Shown here piece after piece: positions 193 through 36,622 of a stretch of 64,000 nt of DNA. Positions within the stretch are counted from its first letter, which is position 1. The number at the start of each line of letters is the position of its first letter. Origin of the DNA: Sabellastarte sp. h YS-2021 (taxonomy: Eukaryota > Annelida > Polychaeta > Sabellida > Sabellidae); NCBI GenBank assembly GCA_964017235.1, contig OZ024930.1:151094221-151158220 (forward strand). The letters run 5' to 3'. The notes beneath the pieces are model-generated. The model saw only the letters and a program-made list of their open reading frames with translations. It did not search any database and was not told where the DNA came from. The position numbers were made by a program, and so were the translations under genes.

Positions 193-2400
193 ATGGCATC
201 TCCAGGACAGAAAAAGGGTGCGTGTGGCCATATTATGGCTTCATTTGACAAACATAGTAGGTGTGCGCGTTGTTGCGAGAAAGGACAGGGTGATGACCCT
301 TGTGTTCAAAATCGCAGTGTGACTTTTGCAGTGTCCTTACCCCGGAGCAAGTGCTCAAGTTAAGTACTCCTACCTATAAACTCAGAAAGGAAAAGGCTAA
401 AGCAAAGGAAGTGTTAGTCGATCCGTCTTCTGTGGTAGTACTTGATACCCAGCCTGAACAAGAACCTGCTGTTTCTGTTTCTTCTGCTCCGGATTTGTCC
501 CTTCCTGTGCCTCAGTTTAAGAAAGATCTTCAAGAACTGGACGAAAAGTGGGCCACTCGTATGGCCAGGCTTGAGGCACTTATTACCTTAGGACATCGCT
601 CCTCACCTTCTGTGGGGGCCACGGTGGCAGAGTGGTAACACTCTCGCCTCCCACCTCTGCGGCCGGGGTTCGATCCCCGTCATGGCTGTAAGTGGGAAAG
701 CTGGTAGTTGCTTGCCGTTGGTCGGCAGTTTACAGTACAGAACCCTAACGAACTGTATGTACTGGTTTCCTCTGCCCTTCTAACTACCCGTCGTGATATG
801 ACCTGTACAGTGTTGAAAGCGACGTAAAACCCCAAATAAACAATAAACAATAAACTCACCTTCTGTGCAACAAAATCCAACATTTTCTCCGGTCAAAGTA
901 CCGGTCTCTCATGCTGCTCCAGCAGGTGCTCTTTCCCAGACACCCTTTTTTGTCCCTACTTCGGCTTCTTCCGGCCCAGCCGGCCCGGCTGTTGGCCCGG
1001 ATGAGCCTAGAGATCAGGATTTTTCCTTTGCTGACAGACAATCTCCACTTCAAAACCTCTACCCGGAAGCAGAACCTATGTTTAAACACCCTGCTCCGGT
1101 GGCTACTGTTTCGTCAGCTGCTATGTCTGCTTCCTCTCAATCTGCATTTCAACAACCTTCTTCCGGCTCCGGGCCGGTCACCTTCCGCGATGTCAATCCT
1201 CAGGAAACATTTGAAGAGGGCGAGTTATCTGACGCAGAGGAATCCCCAGACTTGGAAACCTCAGACCCGGACCGGGTCCTCAGTGAAGATCAAAATTACC
1301 GCGAGACTGTGAGAGGCGTCCGCGCGTTCATGGGATGGACACACATTCCTGACCTGGAGTTTTCTCCTCAATCCCGCACTGATAATCCTTGGGCAGGTCA
1401 CCGTTCTCAGCCTGTGGGCAAGATTTCTGTGGATCTTCCACCGGAAGATTGGTTGTGCCGAAAACTAGAAACTCTAAACCTTGTACTGATAGAAGGATAT
1501 CCTTCAAAATCTAGTGATCCAGGTGGCCTGCATGTGGACCAATTCCTCAGACCCCCCAAATCCCAGAGCAGATGGTATGGGATACACCCGGCGGAGCCTA
1601 CAGATCCAACTAGGCCGGGTAAATCGGTGAATTCTTGGCCAAATGATGCGGCGAAGATCAATAGTTCATTCCCCAGGATTTCAACCATATCTTCTGCATC
1701 TCCTCAGCCTCCATCCCGCCCACTATCACAAGACACTATGCGTAAGTGGGAGAAAGCAGCAAAAGAGTCTTCATATATTTGCAACCAGTCAGCGGGGTTT
1801 AATCGCTGTATTACCAAAATACAGGATGCCTTCCAAGAACAATTGCATATTTTACAAAGTGAACTTAAGAAAGGCAAGTCCTCTGTCAAAGCTCAAGGTG
1901 CATTGGATGAACTTTTATATTTATCCTCATTTAACCAGAATGTCAGTTTCGCCATGGGTAAATCTCTACAACATTTGGCAGACTTTACATTTGTGCAGAT
2001 GGCGAATTTGACCCTACTCCATAGGGATTCATACTTGGAAGCTGTGAAACCGGGGATTAAACCGGATACTTTCAATTCCTTGAGAAATTGCCCCCTGAAT
2101 GGATATGGGTTATTTCCAGATGCTGCTATTAGAAAAGCTGAGGATGAAATAAACCAATTAGAAGCTTCCCGACGTACTTCCCAGCCCGACCCGGGCCGCG
2201 GGGGGTTCGCCGGTAGAGGCAGGAAACAGAGATACCAACCCTACAGTACTGGTTGGAAACCTCAAGACACTGCTAAAACAACTTCTCAAGCCGGAAAGGA
2301 ACTACCAGCTTGGAAAGCGTTTGGTTCCCGCAATAGAGGCCGGGGTGGTCAGCCCGGACGTGGTACCAAAATGGCTCATGAGAAGACACAGTATAAATGA
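193..2400 (+). pseudogene. Element A ORF1 (gag-like), broken
   Basis: This is the DIRS gag-like protein, presumed to package the element RNA. The ATG at 193 is followed by MASPGQKKG, shared by all copies. The upstream GTG at 157 is in frame but not needed. The N-terminal Cys/His motif (CGH ... HSRCARC) is intact, but a missing T near 315 (AAAATCGCAG here, AAAATCTGCAG in element C) shifts the frame and stops it at 361. The SINE at 615-854 splits what follows. The frame is open again from 865 and ends in an RG-rich basic tail and a UGA at 2398-2400. This copy cannot give full-length ORF1 without repair. Confidence 0.9.
615..854 (+). mobile_element. tRNA-derived SINE inserted in element A ORF1
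   Basis: A 240-base insertion is flanked by a perfect 13-base target duplication, CTCACCTTCTGTG (602-614 and 855-867), and is absent from the sister copy C. The head carries a pol III A box (GGTGGCAGAGTGGT, 623-636) and B box (GGTTCGATCCC, 667-677). The stretch ACTCTCGCCTCCCAC between them resembles the anticodon arm of tRNA-Gly(GCC). The body ends in GCGACGTAAAACCCC plus (AATAAAC)n, a tail style common in molluscan SINEs. The tail shows plus-strand insertion. This is a retroposed copy, not a tRNA gene. Confidence 0.9.
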
Positions 2401-2406
2401 CAATTA
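2391..2406 (+). other. ORF1 stop in readthrough context UGA-CAAUUA (element A)
   Basis: The ORF1 stop TGA (2398-2400) is followed by CAATTA, which fits the type I readthrough consensus CARYYA known from tobamovirus-type stops. It overlaps ATG at 2397. Five bases present in element C (TCAAG) are missing a little downstream in A. The readthrough frame in A therefore meets a second stop after about 16 codons, and the RT frame here becomes the frame of the ATG at 2397. A is thus a mutated version of the arrangement intact in C. Confidence 0.7.
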
Positions 2407-4706
2407 CTGCAAGTCCGGTGCCGGTGGCCCGGCCAGTCAGTTCTGTGAAAAGTGTCGTAACAAGAAACTCTTTTGTATCTGTTCCAACAAATGTTTCTTA
2501 TCATGTTGTATGTTGTGTACCTACTGTAACAAGGTGGCAGTCACAAAAGAAAGACGTAAGGCCAAAATCAAAGATCAAAAGTCAAATAAAGTGTGTGAAA
2601 AGTGCTTCTTTTGTCGGTCACTTTGTTTCTGCTCCAAATGTTCCAAATGTCCCCAATGTTGCAAGTGTCCAACCAGTGGGGGGACGTCTTCAGAGTTTTT
2701 GGGAAATATGGGCTCACAAGGGTGCAAACCCAAAAGTAGTGTCCATATTAAAGGAAGGTTATGTTCTTCCCTTCAAAGTAAGACCTCCCTTAGTAAGGGT
2801 TCCCCTGATAGTAAGTGGCTATGCAAACCCCATCAGAGACTCCCACTTGCAAGCAGCTGTACAAGCTCTGATCGAGAAAAAGGCAGTAGAGAGGGTCAGG
2901 GTTCAAACCTCACTAGCCTTTTTCAACAGACTGTTCATTGTCCCAAAGCCGAACCACAAGTGGCGGCCAATCTTGGATCTCAGTACTCTAAATCAGTTTT
3001 TATGCGTAAAAACATTCAAAATGGAGACTCCAGAGACAATCCGGACCTCTCTACAACAAGAGGAGTGGGTGACATCGCTAGACTTCAGCGACGCCTACTT
3101 CCACATTCCAATTCACTACACATCCCGAAAATTCCTCAGGTTCCACTTTCAGAACCAGTCGTACCAGTTTCGGGCACTTCCCTTTGGCCTGTCAACAGCT
3201 CCCATGGAGTTCACTGGTGTGGTCAAAGAGGTCAAGTTAATGGCTCAGTCACAGGGTATAAGAATCCACCAGTACCTAGACGACTGGTTGATTCGAGCCC
3301 CTACCAAAGAATCTTGCCACCAGGGAACCCAGTCCCTCCTAGCCCTTTGCCAGGAGTTGGGCTGGATGGTAAACATGCAAAAGTCAGAACTGGAACCCCA
3401 ACAAGTCTTCGACTTCGTAGGCTACCAGTACGACCTACTCAACGGAGTAGTCAGGCCTACTCAAAACCGTTGGGAAGCCCTTCAACAAAAAATAACAGTG
3501 CTTTTACAGAACAGATCTTGCCGAGTGAGAACTTTCATGTCTCTTATAGGTCTTCTCACTGCGACAGAAAAACAGGTGACCCTAGGCAGACTGCACATGA
3601 GACATATTCAGTGGCACCTCAAGAAACACTGGAGAGTCCCAGAATCTCTGGAAAAGGAGATCCCAATTCCGAGGTCTCTCCATCAGTACCTGCAGTGGTG
3701 GACCCAAGAGGAAAATGTCCTAAAGGGTCAGCCCTTACACCCCCTGCGACACGCAGTTCAAATCTTTACAGACGCCTCAAAAGAAGGCTGGGGTGCTCAC
3801 TTAGGCGACTTCACAGCAAGCGGTACTTGGTCAGTGCCCGAAAGCAAGTTGCACATAAACTTCTTAGAACTAAAAGCCGTGTTGTTAGCACTAAAAAGAT
3901 TCCAACATTTAGTGCAAGGAAAGGTCGTCCTGATTGCCACAGACAACACTACGGTTGTAGCATACATCAACAAGGAAGGAGGTATGAGGTCAGGCTCACT
4001 CTGTGCCCTTCTTTGGCGGCTCCTATGTTGGTGCAGCCTCAATCAAATAGTACTGAAGGCCAGACACATTCCAGGCCGTCTGAATGTAATTGCAGACAAA
4101 TTGTCTCGCCAAAGGCAGGTCATTCAGACGGAATGGTCCCTCCATCAAGAGACCTTCGACCTTCTTTGTCAAACCTGGCATTATCCCCGAGTGGACATGT
4201 TTGCAACAAGGTACAACTGCAAGCTAGTTCAATTTGTGTCCCCAATTCCAGACCCAAAGGCCTGGTCAGTGGATGCTCTGACATTGTCCTGGGAGGACCT
4301 GGACATGTACCTCTTCCCCCCAGTGTCTCTGATGGGGAAGGTGGTCAGCAAGCTGTCAGATCACTGGTATCGCAGAGCAATCCTGATTGCCCCGGGATGG
4401 CCCAACATGCCTTGGTTTTGGGACCTAGTGGAGCTATCTGCGAGGGTTCCTCTTTGTCTTGCACACCACCCAGATCTAGTGACCCAACCTTTCAACAAGG
4501 CACGTCACAGGGATCTGACAAACCTAAATCTCCATGCCTGGCTCCTAGAGCCCAGACAATCAAGGAGCAGGGGTTCTCTAGCCCAGTGGCGTCAAGAATT
4601 GAGGCGCCTCAAAGACGTTCAACCAGAACAGTCTACGAAGCGAAGTGGGCCGTTTTTGTCAGATGGTGCGAAACAAGTCAGGTGGACTTCAGGAACCCAT
4701 CTATAA
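2397..4706 (+). CDS. Element A reverse transcriptase / RNase H / methyltransferase-like ORF
   Basis: Open for 769 codons. The first ~90 residues are V/S-rich and overlap the cysteine clusters of the other frame. RT motifs follow: WRPILDLSTLN (~188), LDFSDAYFHIPI (motif A Asp), LPFGLSTAP (motif B), and YLDDW (motif C, ~291). RNase H shows FTDAS (~458), LELKAV, ATDNTT (~514) and HIPGRLNVIADKLS. The C-terminal VDMFATRYN ... IAPGWPNMPWFWDLV segment (~598-680) is the Dam-like methyltransferase region usual after RNase H in DIRS elements. It reads through the last part of the overlapping YR ORF's N-terminal region and stops within the YR domain start. The ATG at 2397 is in frame only because of the local 5-base deletion. 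Confidence 0.93.
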   Translation: MTITASPVPVARPVSSVKSVVTRNSFVSVPTNVSYHVVCCVPTVTRWQSQKKDVRPKSKIKSQIKCVKSASFVGHFVSAPNVPNVPNVASVQPVGGRLQSFWEIWAHKGANPKVVSILKEGYVLPFKVRPPLVRVPLIVSGYANPIRDSHLQAAVQALIEKKAVERVRVQTSLAFFNRLFIVPKPNHKWRPILDLSTLNQFLCVKTFKMETPETIRTSLQQEEWVTSLDFSDAYFHIPIHYTSRKFLRFHFQNQSYQFRALPFGLSTAPMEFTGVVKEVKLMAQSQGIRIHQYLDDWLIRAPTKESCHQGTQSLLALCQELGWMVNMQKSELEPQQVFDFVGYQYDLLNGVVRPTQNRWEALQQKITVLLQNRSCRVRTFMSLIGLLTATEKQVTLGRLHMRHIQWHLKKHWRVPESLEKEIPIPRSLHQYLQWWTQEENVLKGQPLHPLRHAVQIFTDASKEGWGAHLGDFTASGTWSVPESKLHINFLELKAVLLALKRFQHLVQGKVVLIATDNTTVVAYINKEGGMRSGSLCALLWRLLCWCSLNQIVLKARHIPGRLNVIADKLSRQRQVIQTEWSLHQETFDLLCQTWHYPRVDMFATRYNCKLVQFVSPIPDPKAWSVDALTLSWEDLDMYLFPPVSLMGKVVSKLSDHWYRRAILIAPGWPNMPWFWDLVELSARVPLCLAHHPDLVTQPFNKARHRDLTNLNLHAWLLEPRQSRSRGSLAQWRQELRRLKDVQPEQSTKRSGPFLSDGAKQVRWTSGTHL

Positions 4707-5608
4707 AACAAATAGCAGATTTCCTCCTGCACCTTTTCCAGGAGAAAAATCTCCAGCCCAGCACTATTGAAGGTTACAGGTCAGCCATTGCAGACAAACT
4801 GGGAAATACCTCGATTAATGTCGGCAAGGATGACAATTTGACTAGACTGTTAGACAGTTTTCACAGGGATAGACCCAAAGGATGCAGGGGGGTTCCTGGT
4901 TGGAACCTCTCCCTAGTTTTACACCAGCTTACAAAAGCACCTTTTGAACCCCTCAGAAAGGCTTCTCTGAAACACCTTACTTTCAAAACTGTTTTTCTCC
5001 TAGCCCTGGCTTCAGGAAAACGCAGAAGTGAGATACACGCTTGGTTAAACAAAAATATCAGACACCAAGCTGATTGGTCCAAAGTTTCCCTCTACCCATC
5101 ACCAAGTTTCTTGGCGAAAAATCACTTGGCAAAAGAGGGACCAGAGTGTGTGGCCCCTGTGGTCATCCCGGCCTTAGCCCCCACTCTGGATAAGTCTTTA
5201 AAGGAAGACAGATCCCTTTGCCCCGTTCGGGCTCTTCGCTACTACCTGGACAAAACACAGGACCTAAGAACGGGAAAGGAGTTAGTTTTTGTTTCTTTCA
5301 AACAAGGTTTTGACAGGGACATCTCTCCTGCCACTATCTCGTCCTGGATCAAACAAACAGTAGTGTTGTGTTATGATCTCTCTGACCAAGAGTCCTTGAC
5401 CTTACATCAGGTCAAGGCCCATGATGTTAGGGCCTTTGCGGCCTCCAAAGCTTTTCAAGGTGGCATATCTCTGGACCAGATTCTAGCAGCATGCCACTGG
5501 AAGTCCCACAACACCTTTACACAGTTTTACCTTAAGGATGTTGCCTGGGCAGATAAGGAGCTTTTTCACTTGGGTCCTGTGGTGGCGGCCCAGCAGATCC
5601 ACCACTAG
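2399..5608 (+). CDS. Element A Cys-rich / tyrosine recombinase ORF3
   Basis: The tyrosine recombinase integrates the circular DNA intermediate. The recombinase domain occupies about 4605-5608, with conserved GKRRSE (catalytic Arg region, ~5015), HDVR (the HxxR box; His 5420-5422, Arg 5429-5431), then CHW and QFY (nucleophile Tyr 5528-5530). The same frame is open upstream through the entire RT/RNase H region. It begins with two cysteine clusters (CEKC ... CCMLCTYC, then CEKCFFC ... CPQCC). In element C this frame is ORF1's own frame past its UGA; in A the link is shifted by 5 bases. The protein probably ends at AAQQIHH. Confidence 0.9.
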   Translation, partial: DNYCKSGAGGPASQFCEKCRNKKLFCICSNKCFLSCCMLCTYCNKVAVTKERRKAKIKDQKSNKVCEKCFFCRSLCFCSKCSKCPQCCKCPTSGGTSSEFLGNMGSQGCKPKSSVHIKGRLCSSLQSKTSLSKGSPDSKWLCKPHQRLPLASSCTSSDREKGSREGQGSNLTSLFQQTVHCPKAEPQVAANLGSQYSKSVFMRKNIQNGDSRDNPDLSTTRGVGDIARLQRRLLPHSNSLHIPKIPQVPLSEPVVPVSGTSLWPVNSSHGVHWCGQRGQVNGSVTGYKNPPVPRRLVDSSPYQRILPPGNPVPPSPLPGVGLDGKHAKVRTGTPTSLRLRRLPVRPTQRSSQAYSKPLGSPSTKNNSAFTEQILPSENFHVSYRSSHCDRKTGDPRQTAHETYSVAPQETLESPRISGKGDPNSEVSPSVPAVVDPRGKCPKGSALTPPATRSSNLYRRLKRRLGCSLRRLHSKRYLVSARKQVAHKLLRTKSRVVSTKKIPTFSARKGRPDCHRQHYGCSIHQQGRRYEVRLTLCPSLAAPMLVQPQSNSTEGQTHSRPSECNCRQIVSPKAGHSDGMVPPSRDLRPSLSNLALSPSGHVCNKVQLQASSICVPNSRPKGLVSGCSDIVLGGPGHVPLPPSVSDGEGGQQAVRSLVSQSNPDCPGMAQHALVLGPSGAICEGSSLSCTPPRSSDPTFQQGTSQGSDKPKSPCLAPRAQTIKEQGFSSPVASRIEAPQRRSTRTVYEAKWAVFVRWCETSQVDFRNPSIKQIADFLLHLFQEKNLQPSTIEGYRSAIADKLGNTSINVGKDDNLTRLLDSFHRDRPKGCRGVPGWNLSLVLHQLTKAPFEPLRKASLKHLTFKTVFLLALASGKRRSEIHAWLNKNIRHQADWSKVSLYPSPSFLAKNHLAKEGPECVAPVVIPALAPTLDKSLKEDRSLCPVRALRYYLDKTQDLRTGKELVFVSFKQGFDRDISPATISSWIKQTVVLCYDLSDQESLTLHQVKAHDVRAFAASKAFQGGISLDQILAACHWKSHNTFTQFYLKDVAWADKELFHLGPVVAAQQIHH

Positions 5609-6117: not shown

Positions 6118-6334
6118 ACGAAAAAGATGCTATGACGTCACGTCCCTCTGGCGAGTGAGGCAGGAACTAGGCCACCTGGCGAGTGGATTGTAGTGTGCCG
6201 GTCCTGCCGGGGGTGAAACCCGGGACGTCTTTTTCTTTCGTTTGGCGGGACCGGCTGGCGCCGGGCTATAGCTATCGTCTGGTAGGTAAGGTATTAACTA
6301 ATAAAAATTTAATTTACTAATTAAAATTTGCAAT
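6118..6334 (+). repeat. Element A right inverted terminal repeat
   Basis: Inverted copy of the left ITR, from ACGAAAAAGATGC to the tip ...TTTGCAAT. The tip has an AT-rich extension of about 30 bases that the left tip lacks, as in classical DIRS-1. It contains TGACGTCA and the inverted CGTTTGGCGGG module. Confidence 0.92.
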
Positions 6335-6750: not shown

Positions 6751-9700
6751 TCACTTCTGGGCCTGGTGGTGCACCTGCTGGGCAGCCACTACAGGTCCCA
6801 GGTGGAAAAGCTCTGAGTCAGCCCAGGCAACATCCTTCAAATAGAATTGGGTGAAGGTGTTGTGAGATTTCCAGTGGCAGGCTGACAAGATCTGATCTAA
6901 GGAGATCCCTGATTGGAAGGCCTTAGAAGCAGCAAAGGCTCTTACATCATGGGCTTTAACCTGATGTAAGGTGAGGGCCTCCTGGTCAGAGAGCTCATAG
7001 CACAGAACCACAGTCTGTTTGATCCATGAGGAGATGGTGGCAGGTGAGATGTCTTTATCAAAACCCTTCTTGAAGGAGACAAAGACTAACTCCTTATTCT
7101 GCCTGAGGTCTGCAGTCCTGTCCAAGTAGTAGCGCAGGGCTCTAACTGGACATCGGGACCTGTCACCCTTGAGTGACCTATCCAGAGATGGTGCTAGGGC
7201 TGGGATGACCACTGGAGCCACACTATCTGGACCTTCCTTAGCCAGCTGGTTCTTGGATAGGAAGCTGGGTGAGGGGTACAAAGACACCTTAGACCAGTCT
7301 GACTGGTGTCTGATGTTCTTATGTAACCAAGCATGGATCTCACTCCTGCGTTTACCTGAACCCAAAGCCAGCAAGAAAACAGTCTTGAAAGTTAAAAGTT
7401 TCAAGGAGGACTCTTTCAGGGGTTCAAAAGGAGCCTTTGTGAGCTGATGTAAAACCAGTGAAAGGTTCCAGGAGGGGATGCCCCTCCTGCCCTTAGGTCT
7501 GTCTCTATGGAAACTATCCAGGAGACGAGTGAGATTCTCATCTTTGCTGACATTAATGGTGGAATTGCCCAGTTTGTCAGCAATGGCGGATCTGTAGCCA
7601 TCAATAGTGCCTGGTTGTAACTTCTTGTCTTGAAACAAGTGCAGGAGGAAGTCAGCAATGGCTTTCAGAGGTGGTGCCCTGAAGTCCACCTGATTACGGA
7701 GGCACCACTTTGTAAAAATGGTCCACTTTGCCTCATAGACAGATCTGGTTGATCTTCTTTGAGGAGCCTCAATTCGTGCTGCCATTGCCTCAGAGAAGCC
7801 TCTAGGAGCCAGGCATGTAGGTTCAGATTCGACAGGTTCCTGTGAAGGACCTTGTTGAATGGCTGAGACACTAGGTTGGGTATGCTGGGTAGACACAGTG
7901 GGATCTGGCTTGACATGGCTACCAGGTCCCAAAACCAGGGCATGTTGGGCCACCCTGGGGCAATCAGGATTATTCTGTTGCAGGGGTAGTCCTGGAGCTT
8001 CTCCACCACTTTGCCCAAGATGGCTGCCGGTGGGAAGGCGTATGGGTCCAGGTCCTCCCAGGAGAGGCTGAGTGCATCCACTGCCCAAGCCTGGGGGTCT
8101 GGCACCGGTGACACAAACTGGGGCAGTTTGTTGTTGAATCTGGTGGCAAACAGGTCCACTTGTGGCTGGTGCCACCTTGAGCATACAGCTTGGAACACTG
8201 CTGGATGAAGTGACCACTCTGTTTGAATGGTCTGGCCACGTCTGGATAGCTTGTCTGCTATCACGTTCAGCCGGCCGGGGATGTGACGTGCCCTGAGGGT
8301 TACCTGCTGTCTGGTGCACCAGGACAGGATTCTCCACAGTAGGGCACACAGTGACCCCGACTTCATCCCCCCTTCTTTGTTGATATAGGCAACCACTGTT
8401 GTGTTGTCTGTGGCTATCAACACTGTCTTGTTGCAGACCAGGGTTCGAAACTCCTTTAGAGCTAGAAATACTGCTTTTAGCTCTAAGTGGTTTATGTGTA
8501 ACTTGCTCTCTGGAAGGGACCAAATTCCCCTTGCAGTGTGGTCGTCTAAGTGAGCGCCCCACCCTTCGTTTGATGCGTCTGTAAAGATTTGCAGAGCATG
8601 TTTTAGAGGGTGTAATGGTTGACCTAGAAGCACATTGCTTTCCTCCAGCCACCACCTTAGATGTGGGTGGAGTGACATGGGAACTGGTATCACCTTTTCC
8701 AGTGACTCTGGTACCCTCCAGTTGTTTTTCAAGTGCCACTGTATGGGTCTCATGTGAAGTCGCCCTAAGTGGACTTGCTTCTCTGTTGCAGTGAGTAGCC
8801 CTATGAGGGACATGAATTTCCGGACCGGGCAAACCGGATCCGACATTATGGATCTGATCTTGTCTGTCAGGATCTGCCAACGTTCTTCTGTTGGTCGGAC
8901 CGTGCCCTCCTTTAGGTCGAACTGGTAACCTACGAAGTTGAAGACCTGTTTGGGGACCAGTTCTGACTTTTCCCTGTTCACCAACCACCCTAGCTCCTGA
9001 CATAGTGTGACCAGGGTTTGAGTATGCTGGAGACAGGTGTGGTGGGTAGAGGCTCTCACCAGCCAGTCGTCTAGGTACTGGTGGATTCTTATACCCTGTC
9101 GTAAGGCCATGAGCTTGACCTCTTTGGCCACCACTGTGAACTCCATGGGTGCTGTGGAAAGACCAAAAGGCAGGGCCTTGAACTGGTAGGATTGGCCTTG
9201 AATGTGAAAACGCATGTACTTCCTGGACTGACTGTGAATTGGAATGTGGAAGTATGCGTCTTTGAAGTCTATTGAGGTGACCCACTCCCCTACCTGTAGG
9301 GAGCTTCTTATGGTTTCTGGAGTCTCCATTTTGAACGACTGTGTGTTTAAAAAGATGTTCAAAGTGCTCAGGTCCAGGATAGGTCTCCACCGGTTGTTGG
9401 GTTTGGGAACCAAAAATAACCGGTTGTAAAACCCTAGGGAGGTCTGGTTTGTTACCGGTTCCACTGCATTTTTGCTTGTTAGCTGAGCCAGTGCCTCCAA
9501 AAGGAGGGACTGTCTTTGAGGGTTTACATACTTGCTGATGACCATTGGTGACCTGGTTAGGTTGGGTCTGAACCTGAAGGGAAGGGTGTAGCCCTCTCTT
9601 AGTATTCTGATTACCTTTGGACTCGAACCCAGAGTTTCCCACTTCTCCCAAAACTGCTGAAGCCTTGCCCCTACAGGAAGATTTGTGACAACAGTTGGGA

Positions 9701-9972
9701 CATTTGTGACAATCTTTACAGAACTCAAGTGATCTACACAGGAAACATCGTTCACATGGTTTATTTTTTTGATAGATTGACAATAAACGGGATTTACACC
9801 TTTCTTTTGTGGTGACCCGATGACAAAAGGAACACTTGCAACAAAAGAGTTTACATGTGATAACACAGTCTCGCTCTTGCTTGTCACTGGTGGTGGTGGG
9901 TTCAAACCCTTCATCTTGTTGGATACATTTACAGAGTTCACCAATCCGACCACATTTGAAACACAGTAATTG
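6751..9972 (-). CDS. Element B Cys-rich / tyrosine recombinase ORF3 (in frame after the ORF1 UGA)
   Basis: Open for 1,073 codons immediately after the ORF1 UGA (9975-9973) and in ORF1's frame. It starts CAA-TTA-CTG and then encodes a first cysteine cluster (CFKC...CKC, TCKLFCCKCSFC). A second follows (CERCFLC, FCKDCHKCPNCC, SSC). About 600 codons then overlap RT/RNase H in another frame. The last ~330 residues are the YR domain with GKRRSE, HDVR and QFY. Seven or eight residues before EAPQRRSTR are deleted relative to H. The absence of a good AUG near the YR domain and the in-frame link to ORF1 favour production by readthrough; a spliced or internal transcript is the alternative. Confidence 0.88.
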   Translation of the reverse strand, partial: QLLCFKCGRIGELCKCIQQDEGFEPTTTSDKQERDCVITCKLFCCKCSFCHRVTTKERCKSRLLSIYQKNKPCERCFLCRSLEFCKDCHKCPNCCHKSSCRGKASAVLGEVGNSGFESKGNQNTKRGLHPSLQVQTQPNQVTNGHQQVCKPSKTVPPFGGTGSANKQKCSGTGNKPDLPRVLQPVIFGSQTQQPVETYPGPEHFEHLFKHTVVQNGDSRNHKKLPTGRGVGHLNRLQRRILPHSNSQSVQEVHAFSHSRPILPVQGPAFWSFHSTHGVHSGGQRGQAHGLTTGYKNPPVPRRLAGESLYPPHLSPAYSNPGHTMSGARVVGEQGKVRTGPQTGLQLRRLPVRPKGGHGPTNRRTLADPDRQDQIHNVGSGLPGPEIHVPHRATHCNREASPLRATSHETHTVALEKQLEGTRVTGKGDTSSHVTPPTSKVVAGGKQCASRSTITPSKTCSANLYRRIKRRVGRSLRRPHCKGNLVPSREQVTHKPLRAKSSISSSKGVSNPGLQQDSVDSHRQHNSGCLYQQRRGDEVGVTVCPTVENPVLVHQTAGNPQGTSHPRPAERDSRQAIQTWPDHSNRVVTSSSSVPSCMLKVAPATSGPVCHQIQQQTAPVCVTGARPPGLGSGCTQPLLGGPGPIRLPTGSHLGQSGGEAPGLPLQQNNPDCPRVAQHALVLGPGSHVKPDPTVSTQHTQPSVSAIQQGPSQEPVESEPTCLAPRGFSEAMAARIEAPQRRSTRSVYEAKWTIFTKWCLRNQVDFRAPPLKAIADFLLHLFQDKKLQPGTIDGYRSAIADKLGNSTINVSKDENLTRLLDSFHRDRPKGRRGIPSWNLSLVLHQLTKAPFEPLKESSLKLLTFKTVFLLALGSGKRRSEIHAWLHKNIRHQSDWSKVSLYPSPSFLSKNQLAKEGPDSVAPVVIPALAPSLDRSLKGDRSRCPVRALRYYLDRTADLRQNKELVFVSFKKGFDKDISPATISSWIKQTVVLCYELSDQEALTLHQVKAHDVRAFAASKAFQSGISLDQILSACHWKSHNTFTQFYLKDVAWADSELFHLGPVVAAQQVHHQAQK

Positions 9973-10292
9973 TCATTTATGCTTCTTAAATCCCTTGGCC
10001 GGCTTCTGGCTGAAGTTTGAGGCTTTACCACCACCTTTCTGACCAGTTTGCCGGTCTCTAATCTGCTTCCATGCCGGTGTAGTGGGCTTCCGGTCCGGCT
10101 GGTGAGGGGTTCGATTGGAGGAGACGTATGGATGAAAACGTCCAGGTTTCCTCTGTGTGTTACCAGCAGAACGCCTCTCTTCACTACGTGAGATCTCCTC
10201 TTCAGCCTTGACCAGTAAGCTGTCCGGGAAGAGTGAGAGTTGGTGGACTGGAGACGTGCGTAAGGCAGACAAGGTGTCAGGTTTAACTCCAC
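7665..10292 (-). CDS. Element B reverse transcriptase / RNase H / methyltransferase-like ORF
   Basis: Open frame of 875 codons in the +1 frame relative to ORF1, overlapping the last ~320 bases of ORF1 and running across its stop (reading INDNYC there). Motifs in order: ILDLSTLN, IDFKDAYFHIPI, LPFGLSTAP, YLDDW, FTDASNEGWGAH, ATDNTTVVAYINKEGG, HIPGRLNVIADKLS, then VDLFATRFN ... IAPGWPNMPWFWDLV (Dam-like region). The nominal start is a GTG, and no AUG precedes the RT domain except one deep in the V/S-rich linker. Frameshifting from ORF1 or initiation on another transcript is therefore likely. An in-frame 24-base deletion follows LNLHAWLLE relative to H. Confidence 0.92.
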   Translation of the reverse strand: MELNLTPCLPYARLQSTNSHSSRTAYWSRLKRRSHVVKRGVLLVTHRGNLDVFIHTSPPIEPLTSRTGSPLHRHGSRLETGKLVRKVVVKPQTSARSRPRDLRSINDNYCVSNVVGLVNSVNVSNKMKGLNPPPPVTSKSETVLSHVNSFVASVPFVIGSPQKKGVNPVYCQSIKKINHVNDVSCVDHLSSVKIVTNVPTVVTNLPVGARLQQFWEKWETLGSSPKVIRILREGYTLPFRFRPNLTRSPMVISKYVNPQRQSLLLEALAQLTSKNAVEPVTNQTSLGFYNRLFLVPKPNNRWRPILDLSTLNIFLNTQSFKMETPETIRSSLQVGEWVTSIDFKDAYFHIPIHSQSRKYMRFHIQGQSYQFKALPFGLSTAPMEFTVVAKEVKLMALRQGIRIHQYLDDWLVRASTHHTCLQHTQTLVTLCQELGWLVNREKSELVPKQVFNFVGYQFDLKEGTVRPTEERWQILTDKIRSIMSDPVCPVRKFMSLIGLLTATEKQVHLGRLHMRPIQWHLKNNWRVPESLEKVIPVPMSLHPHLRWWLEESNVLLGQPLHPLKHALQIFTDASNEGWGAHLDDHTARGIWSLPESKLHINHLELKAVFLALKEFRTLVCNKTVLIATDNTTVVAYINKEGGMKSGSLCALLWRILSWCTRQQVTLRARHIPGRLNVIADKLSRRGQTIQTEWSLHPAVFQAVCSRWHQPQVDLFATRFNNKLPQFVSPVPDPQAWAVDALSLSWEDLDPYAFPPAAILGKVVEKLQDYPCNRIILIAPGWPNMPWFWDLVAMSSQIPLCLPSIPNLVSQPFNKVLHRNLSNLNLHAWLLEASLRQWQHELRLLKEDQPDLSMRQSGPFLQSGASVIRWTSGHHL

Positions 10293-10670
10293 CTCGTATG
10301 AACTCTAAATAACTGTCCCGACGGGCCAGGGTGAGATTGGCCATGCTGATAAACACTCCCTCTGAGAGATCCTGCATGGTACGCTGCATAGCCTGTGAAA
10401 TTGACCGGTTGAATGTAACCAGATACTCCAGTTCCTCAACAGCCTGTTGTTGTTTCTCAGCACTTTTGCCCTTTGAGGAATCGAACCTGAGGGACTTCAA
10501 CTGGGTGACCATGGAGTCCTGTACTTTCGTGAGGCATCTGGATAGGCCAGCAGCGTGATTACACATCACTGATTGCTCTCGGAAAGACCTCTCCCACCTT
10601 CTAAGGGTGTCCTGGCTGAAAGTACGGGAAGCTGGAGCAGAAGGTAAGCTGCGCCTTGCAACTCTAGAAA
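9973..10670 (-). pseudogene. Element B ORF1, 3' part (split by element C)
   Basis: C-terminal ~232 codons of gag-like ORF1: SRVARRSLPSAP, FSQDTLRRWERSF, MCNHAAGLSRCLTKVQ and a basic tail ending KKHK. It then stops at UGA (9975-9973) followed by CAATTACTG. It continues at 16858: removing 10671-16857 restores one open frame across the joint (...LNSMF|SRVARR...), matching the uninterrupted LNSSFGRIARK of element G. Confidence 0.9.
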
Positions 10671-10887
10671 ATTGCAAATTTTAATTAGTAAATTAAATTT
10701 TTATTAGTTAATACCTTACCTACCAGACGATAGCTATATGCCGGCGCCAGCCGGTCCCGCCAAACGAAAGAAAAAGACGTCCTGGGTTTCACCCCCGGCA
10801 GGACCGGTACACTACATCCCACTCGCCAGGTGGCCTAGTTCCTGCCTCACTCGCCAGAGGGACGTGACGTCATAGCATCTTTTTCGT
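10671..10887 (-). repeat. Element C right inverted terminal repeat
   Basis: Starts with the long AT-rich tip ATTGCAAATTTTAATTAG and ends at CATCTTTTTCGT. It is the inverted partner of 16667-16854 and contains TGACGTCA. Confidence 0.93.
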
Positions 10888-10940: not shown

Positions 10941-11038
10941 CGTCTGGTAGGTAAGGTATTAACTAATAAAAATTTAATTTACTAATTAAAATTTGCAATT
11001 TCATTGCGTTAATACATCTTACCTACCAGACGATAGCT
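10941..11038 (-). repeat. Element C internal complementary region
   Basis: On the plus strand, the right-tip complement (to 10999), TTC (11000-11002), then the left-tip complement (from 11003). Same structure as 5967-6064 in A. TTC predicts the trinucleotide of the circle junction and equals the left flank found at 16855-16857. Confidence 0.93.
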
Positions 11039-11166
11039 AGAATAACTACCCAGTGGAAGGAGGGCAGCCTTCTGAGGATTGGAGAAAACTCTTATATTAT
11101 ACCTAGGTGTGAGGTTCTAGTCCTTTGAGGAGACACGTTAGTCTCAAGGGTAACTAGACCCACCTG

Positions 11167-11388: not shown

Positions 11389-14300
11389 CTAGTGGTGGAT
11401 TTGCTGGGCAGCCACCACAGGACCCAAGTGAAAAAGCTCCTTATCTGCCCAGGCAACATCCTTAAGGTAAAACTGTGTAAAGGTGTTGTGGGACTTCCAG
11501 TGGCATGCTGCTAGAATCTGGTCCAGAGATATGCCACCTTGAAAGGCTTTGGAGGCCGCAAAGGCCCTAACATCATGGGCCTTAACCTGATGTAAGGTCA
11601 AGGAATCTTGGTCAGAGAGATCATAACACAACACTACTGTTTGTTTGATCCAGGACGAGATAGTGGCAGGAGAGATGTCCTTGTTAAAACCTTGTTTGAA
11701 TGAAACAAAAACTAACTCCTTTCCCGTTCTTAGGTCCTGCGTTTTGTCCAGGTAGTAGCGAAGAGCCCGAACGGGGCAAAGGGATCTGTCTTCCTTTAAA
11801 GACTTATCCAGAGTGGGGGCTAAGGCCGGAATGACCACAGGGGCCACGCACTCTGGTCCCTCTTTTGCCAAGTGATTTTTCGCCAAGAAGCTTGGTGAAG
11901 GGTAGAGGGAAACTTTGGACCAATCAGCTTGGTGTCTGATATTTTTGTTTAACCAAGCGTGAATCTCACTCCTGCGTTTTCCTGAAGCCAGGGCTAGGAG
12001 AAAAACAGTTTTGAAAGTAAGGTGCTTCAGAGAAGCCTTTCTGAGTGGTTCAAAAGGCGCTTTTGTAAGCTGGTGTAAAACCAGGGAGAGGTTCCAAGCA
12101 GGAACCCCCCGGCGCCCTTTGGGTCTATCTCTGTGAAAACTGTCTAACAGTCTAGTCAAATTTTCATCCTTGCCGACATTAACCGAGGTATTTCCCAGTT
12201 TGTCTGCAATGGCTGACCTGTAACCATCAATAGTGCTGGGCTGGAGATTCTTCTCCTGGAAAAGGTGCAGGAGGAAATCTGCTATTTGTTTTATAGATGG
12301 GTTCCTGAAGTCCACCTGACTTGTTTCACACCATCTGACAAAAACGGCCCACTTCGCTTCGTAGACTGTTCTGGTTGAACGTCTTTGAGGCGCCTCAATT
12401 CTTGACGCCACTGGGCTAGAGAACCCCTGCTCCTTGATTGTCTGGGCTCTAGGAGCCAGGCATGGAGATTTAGGTTTGTCAGATCCCTGTGACGTGCCTT
12501 GTTGAAAGGTTGGGTCACTAGATCTGGGTGGTGTGGAAGACAAAGAGGAACCCTCGCAGATAGTTCCACTAGGTCCCAAAACCAAGGCATGTTGGGCCAT
12601 CCCGGGGCAATCAGGATTGCTCTGCGATACCAGTGATCTGACAGCTTGCTGACCACCTTCCCCATCAGAGACACTGGGGGGAAGAGGTACATGTCCAGGT
12701 CCTCCCAGGATAATGTCAGAGCATCCACTGACCAGGCCTTTGGGTCTGGAATTGGGGACACAAATTGAACTAGCTTGCAGTTGTACCTTGTTGCAAACAT
12801 GTCCACTAGGGGATAATGCCAGGTTTGACAAAGGAGGTCGAAGGTCTCTTGATGGAGGGACCACTCCGTCTGAATGACCTGCCTTTGGCGAGACAATTTG
12901 TCTGCAATTACATTCAGACGGCCTGGAATGTGTCTGGCCTTCAGTACTATTTGATTGAGGCTGCACCAACATAGGAGCCGCCAAAGAAGGGCACAGAGTG
13001 AGCCTGACCTCATACCTCCTTCCTTGTTGATGTATGCCACAACCGTAGTGTTGTCTGTGGCAATCAGGACGACCTTTCTTTGCACTAAATGTTGGAATCT
13101 TTTTAGTGCTAACAACACGGCTTTTAGTTCTAAGAAGTTTATGTGCAACTTGCTTTCGGGCACTGACCAAGTACCGCTTGCTGTGAAGTCGCCTAAGTGA
13201 GCACCCCAGCCTTCTTTTGAGGCGTCTGTAAAGATTTGAACTGCGTGTCGCAGGGGGTGTAAGGGCTGACCCTTTAGGACATTTTCCTCTTGGGTCCACC
13301 ACTGCAGGTACTGATGGAGAGACCTCGGAATTGGGATCTCCTTTTCCAGAGATTCTGGGACTCTCCAGTGTTTCTTGAGGTGCCACTGAATAGGTCTCAT
13401 GTGCAGTCTGCCTAGGGTCACCTGTTTTTCTGTCGCAGTGAGAAGACCTATAAGAGACATGAAAGTTCTCACTCGGCAAGATCTGTTCTGTAAAAGCACT
13501 GTTATTTTTTGTTGAAGGGCTTCCCAACGGTTTTTGGTAGGCCTGACTACTCCGTTGAGTAGGTCGTACTGGTAGCCTACGAAGTCGAAGACTTGTTGGG
13601 GTTCCAGTTCTGATTTTTGCATGTTTACCATCCAGCCCAACTCCTGGCAAAGGGCTAGGAGGGACTGGGTTCCCTGGTGGCAAGATTCTTTGGTAGGGGC
13701 TCGAATCAACCAGTCGTCTAGGTACTGGTGGATTCTTATACCCTGTGACTGAGCCATTAACTTGACCTCTTTGACCACACCAGTGAACTCCATGGGAGCT
13801 GTTGACAGGCCAAAGGGAAGTGCCCGAAACTGGTACGACTGGTTCTGAAAGTGGAACCTGAGGAATTTTCGGGATGTGTAGTGAATTGGAATGTGGAAGT
13901 AGGCGTCGCTGAAGTCTAGCGATGTCACCCACTCCTCTTGTTGTAGAGAGGTCCGGATTGTCTCTGGAGTCTCCATTTTGAATGTTTTTACGCATAAAAA
14001 CTGATTTAGAGTACTGAGATCCAAGATTGGCCGCCACTTGTGGTTCGGCTTTGGGACAATGAACAGTCTGTTGAAAAAGGCTAGTGAGGTTTGAACCCTG
14101 ACCCTCTCTACTGCCTTTTTCTCGATCAGAGCTTGTACAGCTGCTTGCAAGTGGGAGTCTCTGATGGGATTTGCATAGCCACTTACTATCAGGGGATCCC
14201 TTACTAAGGGAGGTCTGACTTTGAAGGGAAGAACATAACCCTCCTTTAATATGGACACTACTTTTGGGTTTGCACCCTTGTGAGCCCATATTTCCCAAAA

Positions 14301-14601
14301 ACTCTGAAGACGTCCCCCCACTGGTTGGACACTTGCAACATTGGGGACATTTGGAACATTTGGAGCAGAAACAAAGTGACCGACAAAAGAAGCACTTTTC
14401 ACACACTTTATTTGACTTTTGATCTTTGATTTTGGCCTTACGTCTTTCTTTTGTGACTGCCACCTTGTTACAGTAGGTACAAGACATACAACATGATAAG
14501 AAACATTTGTTGGAACAGATACAAAAGAGTTTCTTGTTACGACACTTTTCACAGAACTGACTGGCCGGGCCACCGGCACCGGACTTGACTTGCAGTAATT
14601 G
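11389..14601 (-). CDS. Element C Cys-rich / tyrosine recombinase ORF3 (in frame after the ORF1 UGA)
   Basis: 1,070 codons plus stop, continuous with ORF1 except for the UGA at 14604-14602. Residues ~15-65 hold cysteine cluster 1 (FCEKC, FCICSNKC, SCCMSCTYC, then a basic KERRKAK). Residues ~75-95 hold cluster 2 (CEKCFFC, LCFCSKCSKCPQCC). The middle ~640 codons overlap the RT/RNase H ORF in another frame and are S/P/R/T-rich. The last ~330 form the YR with GKRRSE, HDVR, CHW and QFY. A Gag-Cys-YR readthrough product would be about 1,720 residues. The first in-frame ATG lies inside cluster 1. Confidence 0.88.
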   Translation of the reverse strand, partial: QLLQVKSGAGGPASQFCEKCRNKKLFCICSNKCFLSCCMSCTYCNKVAVTKERRKAKIKDQKSNKVCEKCFFCRSLCFCSKCSKCPQCCKCPTSGGTSSEFLGNMGSQGCKPKSSVHIKGGLCSSLQSQTSLSKGSPDSKWLCKSHQRLPLASSCTSSDREKGSREGQGSNLTSLFQQTVHCPKAEPQVAANLGSQYSKSVFMRKNIQNGDSRDNPDLSTTRGVGDIARLQRRLLPHSNSLHIPKIPQVPLSEPVVPVSGTSLWPVNSSHGVHWCGQRGQVNGSVTGYKNPPVPRRLVDSSPYQRILPPGNPVPPSPLPGVGLDGKHAKIRTGTPTSLRLRRLPVRPTQRSSQAYQKPLGSPSTKNNSAFTEQILPSENFHVSYRSSHCDRKTGDPRQTAHETYSVAPQETLESPRISGKGDPNSEVSPSVPAVVDPRGKCPKGSALTPPATRSSNLYRRLKRRLGCSLRRLHSKRYLVSARKQVAHKLLRTKSRVVSTKKIPTFSAKKGRPDCHRQHYGCGIHQQGRRYEVRLTLCPSLAAPMLVQPQSNSTEGQTHSRPSECNCRQIVSPKAGHSDGVVPPSRDLRPPLSNLALSPSGHVCNKVQLQASSICVPNSRPKGLVSGCSDIILGGPGHVPLPPSVSDGEGGQQAVRSLVSQSNPDCPGMAQHALVLGPSGTICEGSSLSSTPPRSSDPTFQQGTSQGSDKPKSPCLAPRAQTIKEQGFSSPVASRIEAPQRRSTRTVYEAKWAVFVRWCETSQVDFRNPSIKQIADFLLHLFQEKNLQPSTIDGYRSAIADKLGNTSVNVGKDENLTRLLDSFHRDRPKGRRGVPAWNLSLVLHQLTKAPFEPLRKASLKHLTFKTVFLLALASGKRRSEIHAWLNKNIRHQADWSKVSLYPSPSFLAKNHLAKEGPECVAPVVIPALAPTLDKSLKEDRSLCPVRALRYYLDKTQDLRTGKELVFVSFKQGFNKDISPATISSWIKQTVVLCYDLSDQDSLTLHQVKAHDVRAFAASKAFQGGISLDQILAACHWKSHNTFTQFYLKDVAWADKELFHLGPVVAAQQIHH

Positions 14602-14681
14602 TCATTTATACTGTGTCTTCTCATGAGCCATCTTGGTACCACGTCCGGGTTGACCACCCCGGCCTCTATTGCGGGAACCAA
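12291..14681 (-). CDS. Element C reverse transcriptase / RNase H / methyltransferase-like ORF
   Basis: 796 open codons in the +1 frame relative to ORF1, overlapping its last 80 bases and crossing the stop as INDNYC. RT, RNase H and Dam-like regions are complete (YLDDW, FTDAS, ATDNTT, HIPGRLNVIADKLS, APGWPNMPW). The nominal start is TTG; an ATG lies ten codons before the stop region (MRRHSIND) but is not conserved in the other families. The 5 bases TCAAG absent from A keep both this frame and ORF3 correctly phased here. Its 3' end overlaps the YR N-terminus by a few tens of codons. Confidence 0.93.
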   Translation of the reverse strand: MVPAIEAGVVNPDVVPRWLMRRHSINDNYCKSSPVPVARPVSSVKSVVTRNSFVSVPTNVSYHVVCLVPTVTRWQSQKKDVRPKSKIKSQIKCVKSASFVGHFVSAPNVPNVPNVASVQPVGGRLQSFWEIWAHKGANPKVVSILKEGYVLPFKVRPPLVRDPLIVSGYANPIRDSHLQAAVQALIEKKAVERVRVQTSLAFFNRLFIVPKPNHKWRPILDLSTLNQFLCVKTFKMETPETIRTSLQQEEWVTSLDFSDAYFHIPIHYTSRKFLRFHFQNQSYQFRALPFGLSTAPMEFTGVVKEVKLMAQSQGIRIHQYLDDWLIRAPTKESCHQGTQSLLALCQELGWMVNMQKSELEPQQVFDFVGYQYDLLNGVVRPTKNRWEALQQKITVLLQNRSCRVRTFMSLIGLLTATEKQVTLGRLHMRPIQWHLKKHWRVPESLEKEIPIPRSLHQYLQWWTQEENVLKGQPLHPLRHAVQIFTDASKEGWGAHLGDFTASGTWSVPESKLHINFLELKAVLLALKRFQHLVQRKVVLIATDNTTVVAYINKEGGMRSGSLCALLWRLLCWCSLNQIVLKARHIPGRLNVIADKLSRQRQVIQTEWSLHQETFDLLCQTWHYPLVDMFATRYNCKLVQFVSPIPDPKAWSVDALTLSWEDLDMYLFPPVSLMGKVVSKLSDHWYRRAILIAPGWPNMPWFWDLVELSARVPLCLPHHPDLVTQPFNKARHRDLTNLNLHAWLLEPRQSRSRGSLAQWRQELRRLKDVQPEQSTKRSGPFLSDGVKQVRWTSGTHL
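14596..14611 (-). other. ORF1 stop in readthrough context UGA-CAAUUA (element C)
   Basis: On the minus strand, TATAAA-TGA-CAATTA-CTG. The codon after the stop and the next fit CARYYA exactly, and the downstream frame stays open for 1,070 codons. The preceding TATAAA could alternatively be a core promoter element for a shorter transcript. Confidence 0.7.
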
Positions 14682-16554
14682 ACGCTTTCCAAGCTGGTAG
14701 TTCCTTTCCGGCTTGAGAAGTTGTTTTAGCAGTGTCTTGAGGTTTCCAACCAGTACTGTAGGGTTGGTATCTCTGTTTTCTGCCTCTACCGGCGAACCCC
14801 CCGCGGCCCGGGCCGGGCTGGGAAGTACGTCGGGAAGCTTCTAATTGGTTTATTTCATCCTCAGCTTTTCTAATAGCAGCATCTGGAAATAACCCATATC
14901 CATTCAGGGGGCAATTTCTCAAGGAATTGAAAGTGTCTGGTTTAATCCCCGGTTTCACAGCTTCCAAGTATGAATCCCTACAGAGTAGGGTCAAATTTGC
15001 CATCTGCACAAATGTAAAGTCTGCCAAATGTTGTAGAGATTTACCCATGGCGAAACTGACATTCTGGTTAAATGAAGATAAATACAAAAGTTCATCCAAT
15101 GCACCTTGAGCTTTGACAGAAGACTTGCCTTTCTTAAGTTCACTTTGTAAAATATGCAATTGTTCTTGGAAGGCATCCTGTATTTTGGTAATACAGCGAT
15201 TAAACCCCGCTGACTGGTTGCAAATATATGAAGACTCTTTTGCTGCTTTCTCCCACTTACGCATAGTGTCTTGTGATAGTGGGCGGGATGGAGGCTGAGG
15301 AGATGCAGAAGATATGGTTGAAATCCTGGGGAATGAACTATTGATCTTCGCCGCATCATTTGGCCAAGAATTCACTGATTTACCCGGCCTAGTTGGATCT
15401 GTAGGCTCCGCCGGGTGTATCCCATACCATCTGCTCTGGGATTTGGGGGGTCTGAGGAACTGGTCCACATGCAGGCCACCTGGATCACTAGATTTTGAAG
15501 GATATCCTTCTATCAGTACAAGGTTTAGAGTTTCTAGTTTTCGGCACAACCAATCTTCCGGTGGAAGATCCACAGAAATCTTGCCCACAGGCTGAGAACG
15601 GTGACCTGCCCAAGGATTATCAGTGCGGGATTGAGGAGAAAAGTCCAGGTCAGGAATGTGTGTCCATCCCATGAACGCGCGGACGCCTCTCACAGTCTCG
15701 CGGTAATTTTGATCTTCACTGAGGACCCGGTCCGGGTCTGAGGTTTCTAAGTCTGGGGATTCCTCTGCGTCAGATAACTCACCCTCTTCAAATGTTTCCT
15801 GAGGATTGACATCGCGGAAGGTGACCGGCCCGGAGCCGGAAGAAGGTTGTTGAAATGCAGATTGAGAGGAAGCAGACATAGCAGCTGACGACACAGTAGC
15901 CACCGGAGCAGGGTGTTTAAACATAGGTTCTGCTTCCGGGTAGAGGTTTTGAAGTGGAGATTGTCTGTCAGCAAAGGAAAAATCCTGATCTCTAGGCTCA
16001 TCCGGGTCAACAGCCGGACCGGCTGGGCCGGAAGAAGCCGAAGTAGAGACAAAAAAGGGTGTCTGGGAAAGAGCACCTGCTGGAGCAGCATGAGAGACCG
16101 GTACTTTGACCGGAGAAAATGTTGGATTTTGTACAGAAGGTGAGGAGCGATGTCCTAAAGTGATAAGTGCCTCAAGCCTGGCCATACGAGTGGCCCACTT
16201 TTCGTCCAGTTCCTGAAGATCTTTCTTAAACTGAGGCACAGGAAGGGACAAATCCGGAGCAGAAGAAACAGATACAGCAGGTTCTTGTTCTGGCTGGGTA
16301 TCAAGTACTACCACAGAAGACGGATCGACTAACACTTCCTTTGCTTTAGCCTTTTCCTTTCTGAGTTTATAGGTAGGAGTACTTAACTTGAGCACTTGCT
16401 CCGGGGTAAGGACACTGCAAAAGTCACACTGCAGATTTTGAACACAAGGGTCATCACCCTGTCCTTTCTCGCGACAACGCGCACACCTACTATGTTTGTC
16501 AAATGAAGCCATAATATGGCCACACGCACCCTTTTTCTGTCCTGGAGATGCCAT
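14602..16554 (-). CDS. Element C ORF1 (gag-like), intact
   Basis: 650-residue gag-like protein starting at the ATG of MASPGQKKG (16554); the GTG 12 codons upstream is not conserved. Residues 11-46 form a Cys/His cluster (C11, H13, H21, C24, C27, C37, C43, C46) that resembles zinc-binding N-termini of DIRS Gag. A basic, Ser/Pro-rich spacer with an acidic stretch (EEGELSDAEE) follows. Next come a conserved segment with RGVRAFMGW and EDWLCRKLETLNL...EGYPS, and a predicted helical region (SQDTMRKWEKAAKESSYICNQSAGFNRC). The C-terminus is RG-rich (GRGGFAGRGRK, NRGRGG) and likely binds RNA. It ends YK-UGA. Confidence 0.92.
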   Translation of the reverse strand: MASPGQKKGACGHIMASFDKHSRCARCREKGQGDDPCVQNLQCDFCSVLTPEQVLKLSTPTYKLRKEKAKAKEVLVDPSSVVVLDTQPEQEPAVSVSSAPDLSLPVPQFKKDLQELDEKWATRMARLEALITLGHRSSPSVQNPTFSPVKVPVSHAAPAGALSQTPFFVSTSASSGPAGPAVDPDEPRDQDFSFADRQSPLQNLYPEAEPMFKHPAPVATVSSAAMSASSQSAFQQPSSGSGPVTFRDVNPQETFEEGELSDAEESPDLETSDPDRVLSEDQNYRETVRGVRAFMGWTHIPDLDFSPQSRTDNPWAGHRSQPVGKISVDLPPEDWLCRKLETLNLVLIEGYPSKSSDPGGLHVDQFLRPPKSQSRWYGIHPAEPTDPTRPGKSVNSWPNDAAKINSSFPRISTISSASPQPPSRPLSQDTMRKWEKAAKESSYICNQSAGFNRCITKIQDAFQEQLHILQSELKKGKSSVKAQGALDELLYLSSFNQNVSFAMGKSLQHLADFTFVQMANLTLLCRDSYLEAVKPGIKPDTFNSLRNCPLNGYGLFPDAAIRKAEDEINQLEASRRTSQPGPGRGGFAGRGRKQRYQPYSTGWKPQDTAKTTSQAGKELPAWKAFGSRNRGRGGQPGRGTKMAHEKTQYK

Positions 16555-16666: not shown

Positions 16667-16854
16667 ACGAAAAAGATGCTATGACGTCACGTCCCTCTGG
16701 CGAGTGAGGCAGGAACTAGGCCACCTGGCGAGTGGGATGTAGTGTACCGGTCCTGCCGGGGGTGAAACCCAGGACGTCTTTTTCTTTCGTTTGGCGGGAC
16801 CGGCTGGCGCCGGCATATAGCTATCGTCTGGTAGGTAAGATGTATTAACGCAAT
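16667..16854 (-). repeat. Element C left inverted terminal repeat with promoter module
   Basis: On the minus strand it starts ATTGCGTTAATACATC and ends TCTTTTTCGT, followed by TTGGCGCG. It carries CCCGCCAAACG...AAAAAGACGTC near the tip and TGACGTCA...TCTTTTTCGTTTGGCG near the inner end. These two modules are inverted relative to each other, so a single strand of one ITR can fold back. Confidence 0.92.
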
Positions 16855-16857
16855 GAA

Positions 16858-18111: not shown

Positions 18112-18234
18112 TATGATCAGAAACGTAGTAGAAGTATACAGCACTAATAAAAAACACGAAACTGGGATGAGTACATTGTAAAAAACACAAAACGTATCTC
18201 TGATGAAATTCGTCTGCACACTCTTTCGCGCCAA

Positions 18235-32105: not shown

Positions 32106-32417
32106 TGAGATGTCTGACCCCTGGCCGGACATGATGACAAAATTTATTACCTCTCCAGTCAAGTCCAGCACCGATAACAGGTTGTTGAGAGGTGTGATAA
32201 GGGAAGGTTGCCTGGCAGTAGCTTGGGACACTGTCATATCACCAAGACCACTGACCGGTCTAAGAATTCTCTGTAACCAAATAAACCTGAGGCAACTCTG
32301 TCCGGTACCCGGACTCCATACTCGGTACTTTACTGTAACTAGTAACTCTCTGTAACAAAAAACTAGCAGGCTGGGGTCATCAATGAATTTTGACAGCTAC
32401 TGGTCTATATTTAGCCA

Positions 32418-32451
<34 letters not shown>

Positions 32452-36613: not shown

Positions 36614-36622
36614 CAGTTATTG
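36611..36622 (+). other. ORF1 stop in readthrough context UGA-CAGUUA (element F)
   Basis: TATAAA-TGA-CAGTTA-TTG. The CAG variant still fits CARYYA. The following frame is open for 173 codons to a TAA at 37133. Confidence 0.7.

Follow-up and report, generated by a model that had tools for sequence, protein, structure and literature searches.

The Gag gene of each of six DIRS-type retrotransposon copies (A, B, C, F, G and H) within a 64-kb stretch of Sabellastarte sp. DNA (hereafter the window) was found to end with UGA followed by CAAUUA, CAGUUA or CAAUCA, as had been claimed in an initial annotation of this DNA, and all three hexamers fit the CARYYA consensus. Readthrough of this stop to yield a fusion of Gag with a cysteine-rich (Cys) module and a tyrosine recombinase (YR) is, based on the sequence comparisons presented here, the best explanation of the site and probably the correct one. 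By this model, the Gag stop would be a programmed weak stop, composed of UGA and CARYYA (mostly CAAUYA or CAGUYA) and preceded by a lysine codon, AAA. A minority of ribosomes would insert an amino acid at UGA and continue in the reading frame of Gag (frame 0), and the product would be a minor Gag-Cys-linker-YR fusion, with Gag presumably in excess, that may serve to co-package the recombinase with Gag. The occurrence and level of readthrough we infer from the site itself, its near-invariance, the openness of frame 0, the conservation of its cysteines and the lack of an AUG codon in most of the families read; this comparative evidence supports the low-level Gag-Cys-YR fusion that the initial annotation had proposed.

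Copy C, a DIRS-type element, lies on the minus strand. Its right-hand (10715..10887) and left-hand (16667..16839) inverted terminal repeats form 173-nt arms that are 100% complementary to each other and are accompanied by complementary inner arms (copy C only). Its internal complementary region (10941..11039) includes 10941-11010, which is 94% complementary to 10660-10729, and 10999-11039, which is 100% complementary to 16818-16858. Reverse transcriptase (RT) and RNase H were detected in copies A, B and C by Pfam (PF00078, E about 3e-22 to 4e-22; PF17917, above cut-off). The putative YR was matched by PF00589 with E values of 0.0007-0.0033, which are below the curated cut-off; the frame-0 ORFs of copies B and C were among those matched, and catalytic residues were recognized by eye. 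A methyltransferase domain is present in many DIRS-type elements, although not in all, and no match to such a domain was obtained in the Pfam scan of copies A, B and C. Gag, RT/RNase H, YR (putative in the present copies), inverted terminal repeats and an internal complementary region are likewise shared by the DIRS1-like elements described previously (PMC3266345).

The Gag ORF of copy C spans 14602..16554 of the minus strand from the first Met (MASPGQKK) to UGA and ends in (G)TATAAA TGA CAATTA (14596..14611, minus strand, with TGA at 14604-14602), the proposed readthrough signal. By motif search and frame analysis, the corresponding stop and hexamer were located at 2398..2406 (plus strand, CAATTA) in copy A, 9967..9975 (minus, CAATTA) in B, 36611..36619 (plus, CAGTTA) in F, 41596..41604 (minus, CAATCA) in G and 63690..63698 (minus, CAATCA) in H. 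TGACARYYA occurs nine times in the window, six of these being the Gag stops and three not, compared to 5.76 expected; at least nine were found in 11 of 100 shuffles, and the excess is not significant. Thus, the density in the window is by itself uninformative, and it is the location at the Gag stop that informs, since a random hexamer matches CARYYA with a chance of 1/512 at equal base frequencies. No unusual folding energy was detected for the RNA 3' of the stop in seven copies (z of -0.81 to +1.45), by a method that covers folds free of pseudoknots. Stretches resembling GCCGGGAGC and GCCCGGGC, which in copy G lie about 37 and 119 nt past the stop, could pair with each other in several families, but with ordinary energies (window 41470-41601 and 36614-36745; L090:259-390; L095:309-440).

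Frame 0 was found to be open past the Gag stop for 1073 codons in copy B, 1070 in C, 1080 in H, 653 in G and 173 in F, which confirms the in-frame extension described by the initial annotation for these five copies and its 1,070-1,080 codons for B, C and H. In copy C, the Cys-YR ORF begins directly after the stop (11389..14601, minus strand) and has its PF00589 match, below the curated cut-off, at residues 862-1047. The equivalent ORFs of B (6751..9972) and H (60453..63695) and frame 0 of G (39640..41601) are likewise on the minus strand. Copy A counts against readthrough, as its frame 0 closes after 15 codons and its Cys-YR frame (2162..5608 from stop to stop, plus strand; ORF list, Pfam and shuffle test) is out of frame with Gag. 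A CAAGT repeat lies just 3' of the stop, with one unit in A (2410-2414), two in C (14583-14592) and three in locus L039, and a change in unit number shifts the frames relative to Gag; two units were retained in 27 of 28 C-family loci.

Beyond the Cys module, about 1.8 kb of Cys-YR is shared with the RT/RNase H gene. The number of stops in this overlap was compared to 2000 synonymous shuffles of the RT codons in five copies, with F left out as its RT frame is broken and with A included in its Cys-YR frame, which is not the frame of Gag. By this approach, the Cys-YR frame was found to have no stops through RT in A, B, C and H and one in G, compared to shuffle means of 28.6-36.1, with no shuffle as low, and we conclude that this frame has been kept open. 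By the same test, stops in the third frame exceeded the shuffle mean in each of the five copies. The first 450 nt of the Cys-YR frame similarly had no stops, compared to 8.8-10.3 expected from RT-codon shuffles (A, B, C, G and H). Inside RT, the frame-0 peptide displayed little constraint beyond openness, with changes mostly at RT third positions.

The Cys module of copy C extends from first to last cysteine over frame-0 codons 17-91 (14329..14553, minus strand). Cysteines within codons 1-150 of the frame exceeded those of RT-codon shuffles in all six copies (P of 0/2000 to 0.0055), and 12 cysteines were invariant among 19 aligned sequences of 35-85% identity to the first, comprising five window sequences and 14 database proteins chosen because their N-terminus reaches the module. 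The initial annotation had traced a path through cysteine clusters to the recombinase; the clusters are borne out by this alignment, and the recombinase-like domain was recovered in B and C by a Pfam match below threshold. AlphaFold prediction of the module was poor (mean pLDDT of 51.6).

Initiation within frame 0 was considered next to readthrough. No AUG was found in the first 300 codons of frame 0 in B, G and H, and the first AUG is codon 99 in F and codon 39 in C. The codons ahead of the Cys module lack an AUG in B, F, G and H, and the AUG of C lies inside this module. When 24 family representatives were read (about 69 codons each, some broken), 14 had neither an AUG nor a stop in frame 0. 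These findings bear on the suggestion that the TATAAA box before the stop is an internal promoter driving a shorter Cys-YR messenger. The box, which the initial annotation described as conserved, is indeed TATAAA in five of the six copies but is CATAAA in B and in members of other families, and a promoter gives no reason for CARYYA or UGA. As frame 0 of B, G and H is without AUG over 300 codons, a promoter by itself would be of no help, and we judge this explanation to be very unlikely.

We examined conservation of the stop in the 1.79-Gb genome assembly. All 106 loci fetched by homology have TGA at the Gag stop, and 104 of these have CARYYA, the two others being L019 (CAATAA) and L028 (CCATCA). 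The loci came from four fetches (58, 30, 8 and 10), include window copies C, G and H (as L001, L009 and L061) and are mostly close copies of about five families (C, G, B/H and two related to database protein P0043); window copy F represents a sixth. The stop was located by alignment alone in the sets of 58 and 30 and by short flanking patterns in those of 8 and 10, in which every locus fetched for that purpose showed the stop. By pattern search, the canonical site ATAAATGACARYYAYTG was detected at 6144 places genome-wide (5 for the backwards control), compared to 99 for its UAA/UAG version (control 10), 13 for its CGA (sense) version (control 7) and 73 for its +4U (TGA-T) version (control 3). 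The initial annotation had named UAA or random hexamers at neutral frequency as evidence against its proposal; UAA and the two off-signal versions are rare here. Twenty canonical sites were sampled, 19 of them at intervals of about five places and one for its rare CAGCCA, and all 20 proved to be DIRS Gag/Cys junctions; frame 0 stays open throughout the fetched piece in 16 and is broken in four. When 141 of 142 sites searched were clustered at 85%, 27 clusters were obtained, of which three are not DIRS; of the remaining 24, 12 were found only by the canonical and six only by the UAA pattern and are therefore conditioned on the pattern used, and the finder required AAA and a YK/HK ending and so can test neither.

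Sixteen of the TAA/TAG places were read, and 12 proved to be DIRS junctions, all with TAA, while four were not DIRS by eye. These 12 junctions all differ in sequence, each with a different downstream peptide; in this sample, therefore, UAA represents scattered mutations and not a family. UAG accounted for 11 of the 99 places, about the background of 10, and the two that were read were not DIRS. The one-step versions, each near 1%, could simply reflect the decay of dead copies. The near-absence of CGA points to a need for the stop itself, in keeping with a requirement for excess Gag, although CGA holds a CpG, the possibly rapid loss of which may add to the deficit. The rarity of +4U is not independent of the reading in frame 0, since this change also creates a second frame-0 stop. 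Natural type I readthrough generally uses UAG (PMC3542737), whereas UGA is present in all 106 loci here. CARYYA promotes readthrough about equally well after UGA and after UAG, in both cases far above UAA, and UGA-CARYYA in the OPRL1 reporter gave about 15% readthrough (PMC4132726); the UGA-rich and UAA-poor pattern found here fits these values.

The site also encodes part of RT in the overlapping frame, as the peptide [ILTV]ND[NS][YHQ], and could in principle be conserved solely for this peptide. All 63 of 120 RT homologues that matched a motif search read so, as did 22 of 120 in a second set; the search pattern had N, D and one of Y, H and Q built in. Counting against the readthrough site, the other 57 of the first set did not show it in their first 300 residues, but nearly all of these start after it or have gene models that skip it; P0073 has the site further on, and P0044 and P0058 may be exceptions. 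Base use at the site was counted in the first 100 canonical places listed, all on contig C1, by a pattern restricted to R at +6 and to Y at +7, +8 and +10. Position +7, which is RT-silent too, was T/C at 99/1, a preference beyond the demand of CARYYA, and +6 was A/G at 88/12. Position +10 is also RT-silent and varied (C/T at 61/39), and +8, which is not RT-silent, varied to the same extent (T/C at 60/40). The CGA and +4U versions are silent in RT (AAT to AAC and GAC to GAT, respectively) yet, unlike the changes at +10, are rare compared to the 6144 canonical places, which argues that something besides the RT peptide holds the site and leaves little probability to this explanation.

Frame 0 could alternatively initiate at a near-cognate YUG codon following the hexamer, as CTG or TTG is the third codon in most copies read. 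The 6144 places do not count in favor of such a start, since the pattern itself demanded YTG, and 12 of the 63 RT homologues carry a residue other than Cys at the matching position, which means that the frame-0 codon there is not YUG; we regard initiation at YUG as highly improbable. Splicing that removes the stop, or that joins exons into separate messengers for Cys-YR and RT, is unlikely as well. Some database gene models (P0001, P0005 and P0080) do join the frames as if by introns, which may be annotation artefacts, but no shared donor or acceptor flanking the stop was seen by eye in the families listed, and splicing leaves both the retention of UGA-CARYYA and the rarity of CGA unexplained. 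In the gene models P0001, P0018 and P0089, RT is fused to YR with a few residues skipped, possibly by introns invented over a frame change. Database protein P0188 has Arg at the stop position and is continuous from the Gag tail into the Cys module, which may be an effect of the gene model.

While readthrough would account for Cys-YR, the RT frame is faced with the same start problem at the same stop, which was not seen in the initial annotation. The RT/RNase H frame is +1 to Gag in B, C, F, G and H and extends over 12291..14840 (minus strand, stop to stop) in C, 7665..10304 (minus) in B, 39294..41891 (minus; RT by similarity to copy C) in G and 2397..4706 (plus) in A. Upstream of the Gag stop, openness of the RT frame was at chance level (P of 0.115-1.0 in B, C, F, G and H), and an RT-frame AUG was absent in B, F and H and from the last 50 codons in 17 of 24 family representatives, three of which have a shorter open stretch of 8-29 codons. 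In the pair G/L034, Gag third positions account for 27 of the 34 changes upstream of the stop, so that RT is not visibly constrained there; the pair L090/L095 gave p1, p2, p3 of 4, 3, 24 and 3, 7, 12 upstream of the stop. RT may thus also become meaningful near the Gag stop. The same weak stop could, in addition to readthrough, shift some ribosomes +1 at AAA_UGA_C to give Gag-RT/RNase H, an extension of the readthrough explanation and not a replacement, which we consider possible but not established enough to favor. The last Gag Lys codon is AAA in the C, G and B/H families, where AAA was not a search condition, and also in F, L089 and L094, compared to 43% AAA among internal Lys codons of Gag tails (60 AAA to 81 AAG), and AAA would suit +1 slippage; AAA in 24 of 24 family representatives means little, since the script that located the sites required it. 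Weak stops are known to yield readthrough and both frameshifts in competition, and stop-dependent +1 frameshifting in OAZ1 and prfB (PMC9841425) provides a model for what is only proposed here for the RT frame. Against this, the shift could take place at any point within the final 200-330 nt of Gag or could follow readthrough, copy C has an RT-frame AUG seven codons before the stop, seven of the 24 representatives have one within 50 codons, and the pairs B/H and C/H are without a Gag-only substitution pattern. Tentatively, a single leaky UGA might act as a hub, with termination giving Gag, readthrough giving Gag-Cys-YR and a +1 shift at AAA_UGA_C giving Gag-RT/RNase H. If so, two overlapping enzymes in two frames would be metered from one codon, and this dual-frame version is testable with one three-frame reporter.

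Gammaretroviral Gag-Pol readthrough (type III) uses UAG and likewise bypasses the Gag stop to make an enzyme fusion. It uses a pseudoknot (PMC3542737), whereas folding energies revealed no strong 3' structure at the DIRS site, and the enzyme of the fusion proposed here is a recombinase. The tobamovirus type I signal, UAG-CARYYA, has the same six bases directly after the stop and a long in-frame extension (PMC3542737), whereas the stop here is UGA, the element is a retrotransposon in an animal genome and not a plant virus, and the readthrough is a predicted one. The retrotransposon Tca2 of Candida similarly has UGA between gag and an in-frame enzyme ORF, although its gag-UGA-pol junction did not by itself direct readthrough in yeast, and the description of this junction mentions a possible pseudoknot and not CARYYA (PMC2194720). 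For DIRS1-like elements, a long pol/YR overlap is already known in half of 28 elements, and what appears to be new here is the proposed readthrough signal in a known kind of element; the passages of that account on gene organization treat YR as a separate ORF, naming the overlap but mentioning neither a translation mechanism nor a post-Gag Cys module (PMC3266345). In the accounts of DIRS elements covered here, the overlap is named but no mechanism for translating YR and RT from such frames is given. A search of the open literature at the level of titles and abstract openings found no description of readthrough in DIRS elements. UGA-CARYYA at more than six thousand places in one genome would provide a large natural set for the study of readthrough.

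Loci L059, L060 and L061 (copy H) are 100% identical over 501 nt on three contigs and, together with the fully complementary terminal repeats of copy C, point to recent activity of the elements. One scan of viral contigs found no relatives. Diverged, separate Gag fragments lie beside copy C at 16841-18114 of the window, and a tandem repeat at 32391-32840 translates as repeated ASVQGCVAGTSRYTL-like units next to a chance TGACAGCTA.
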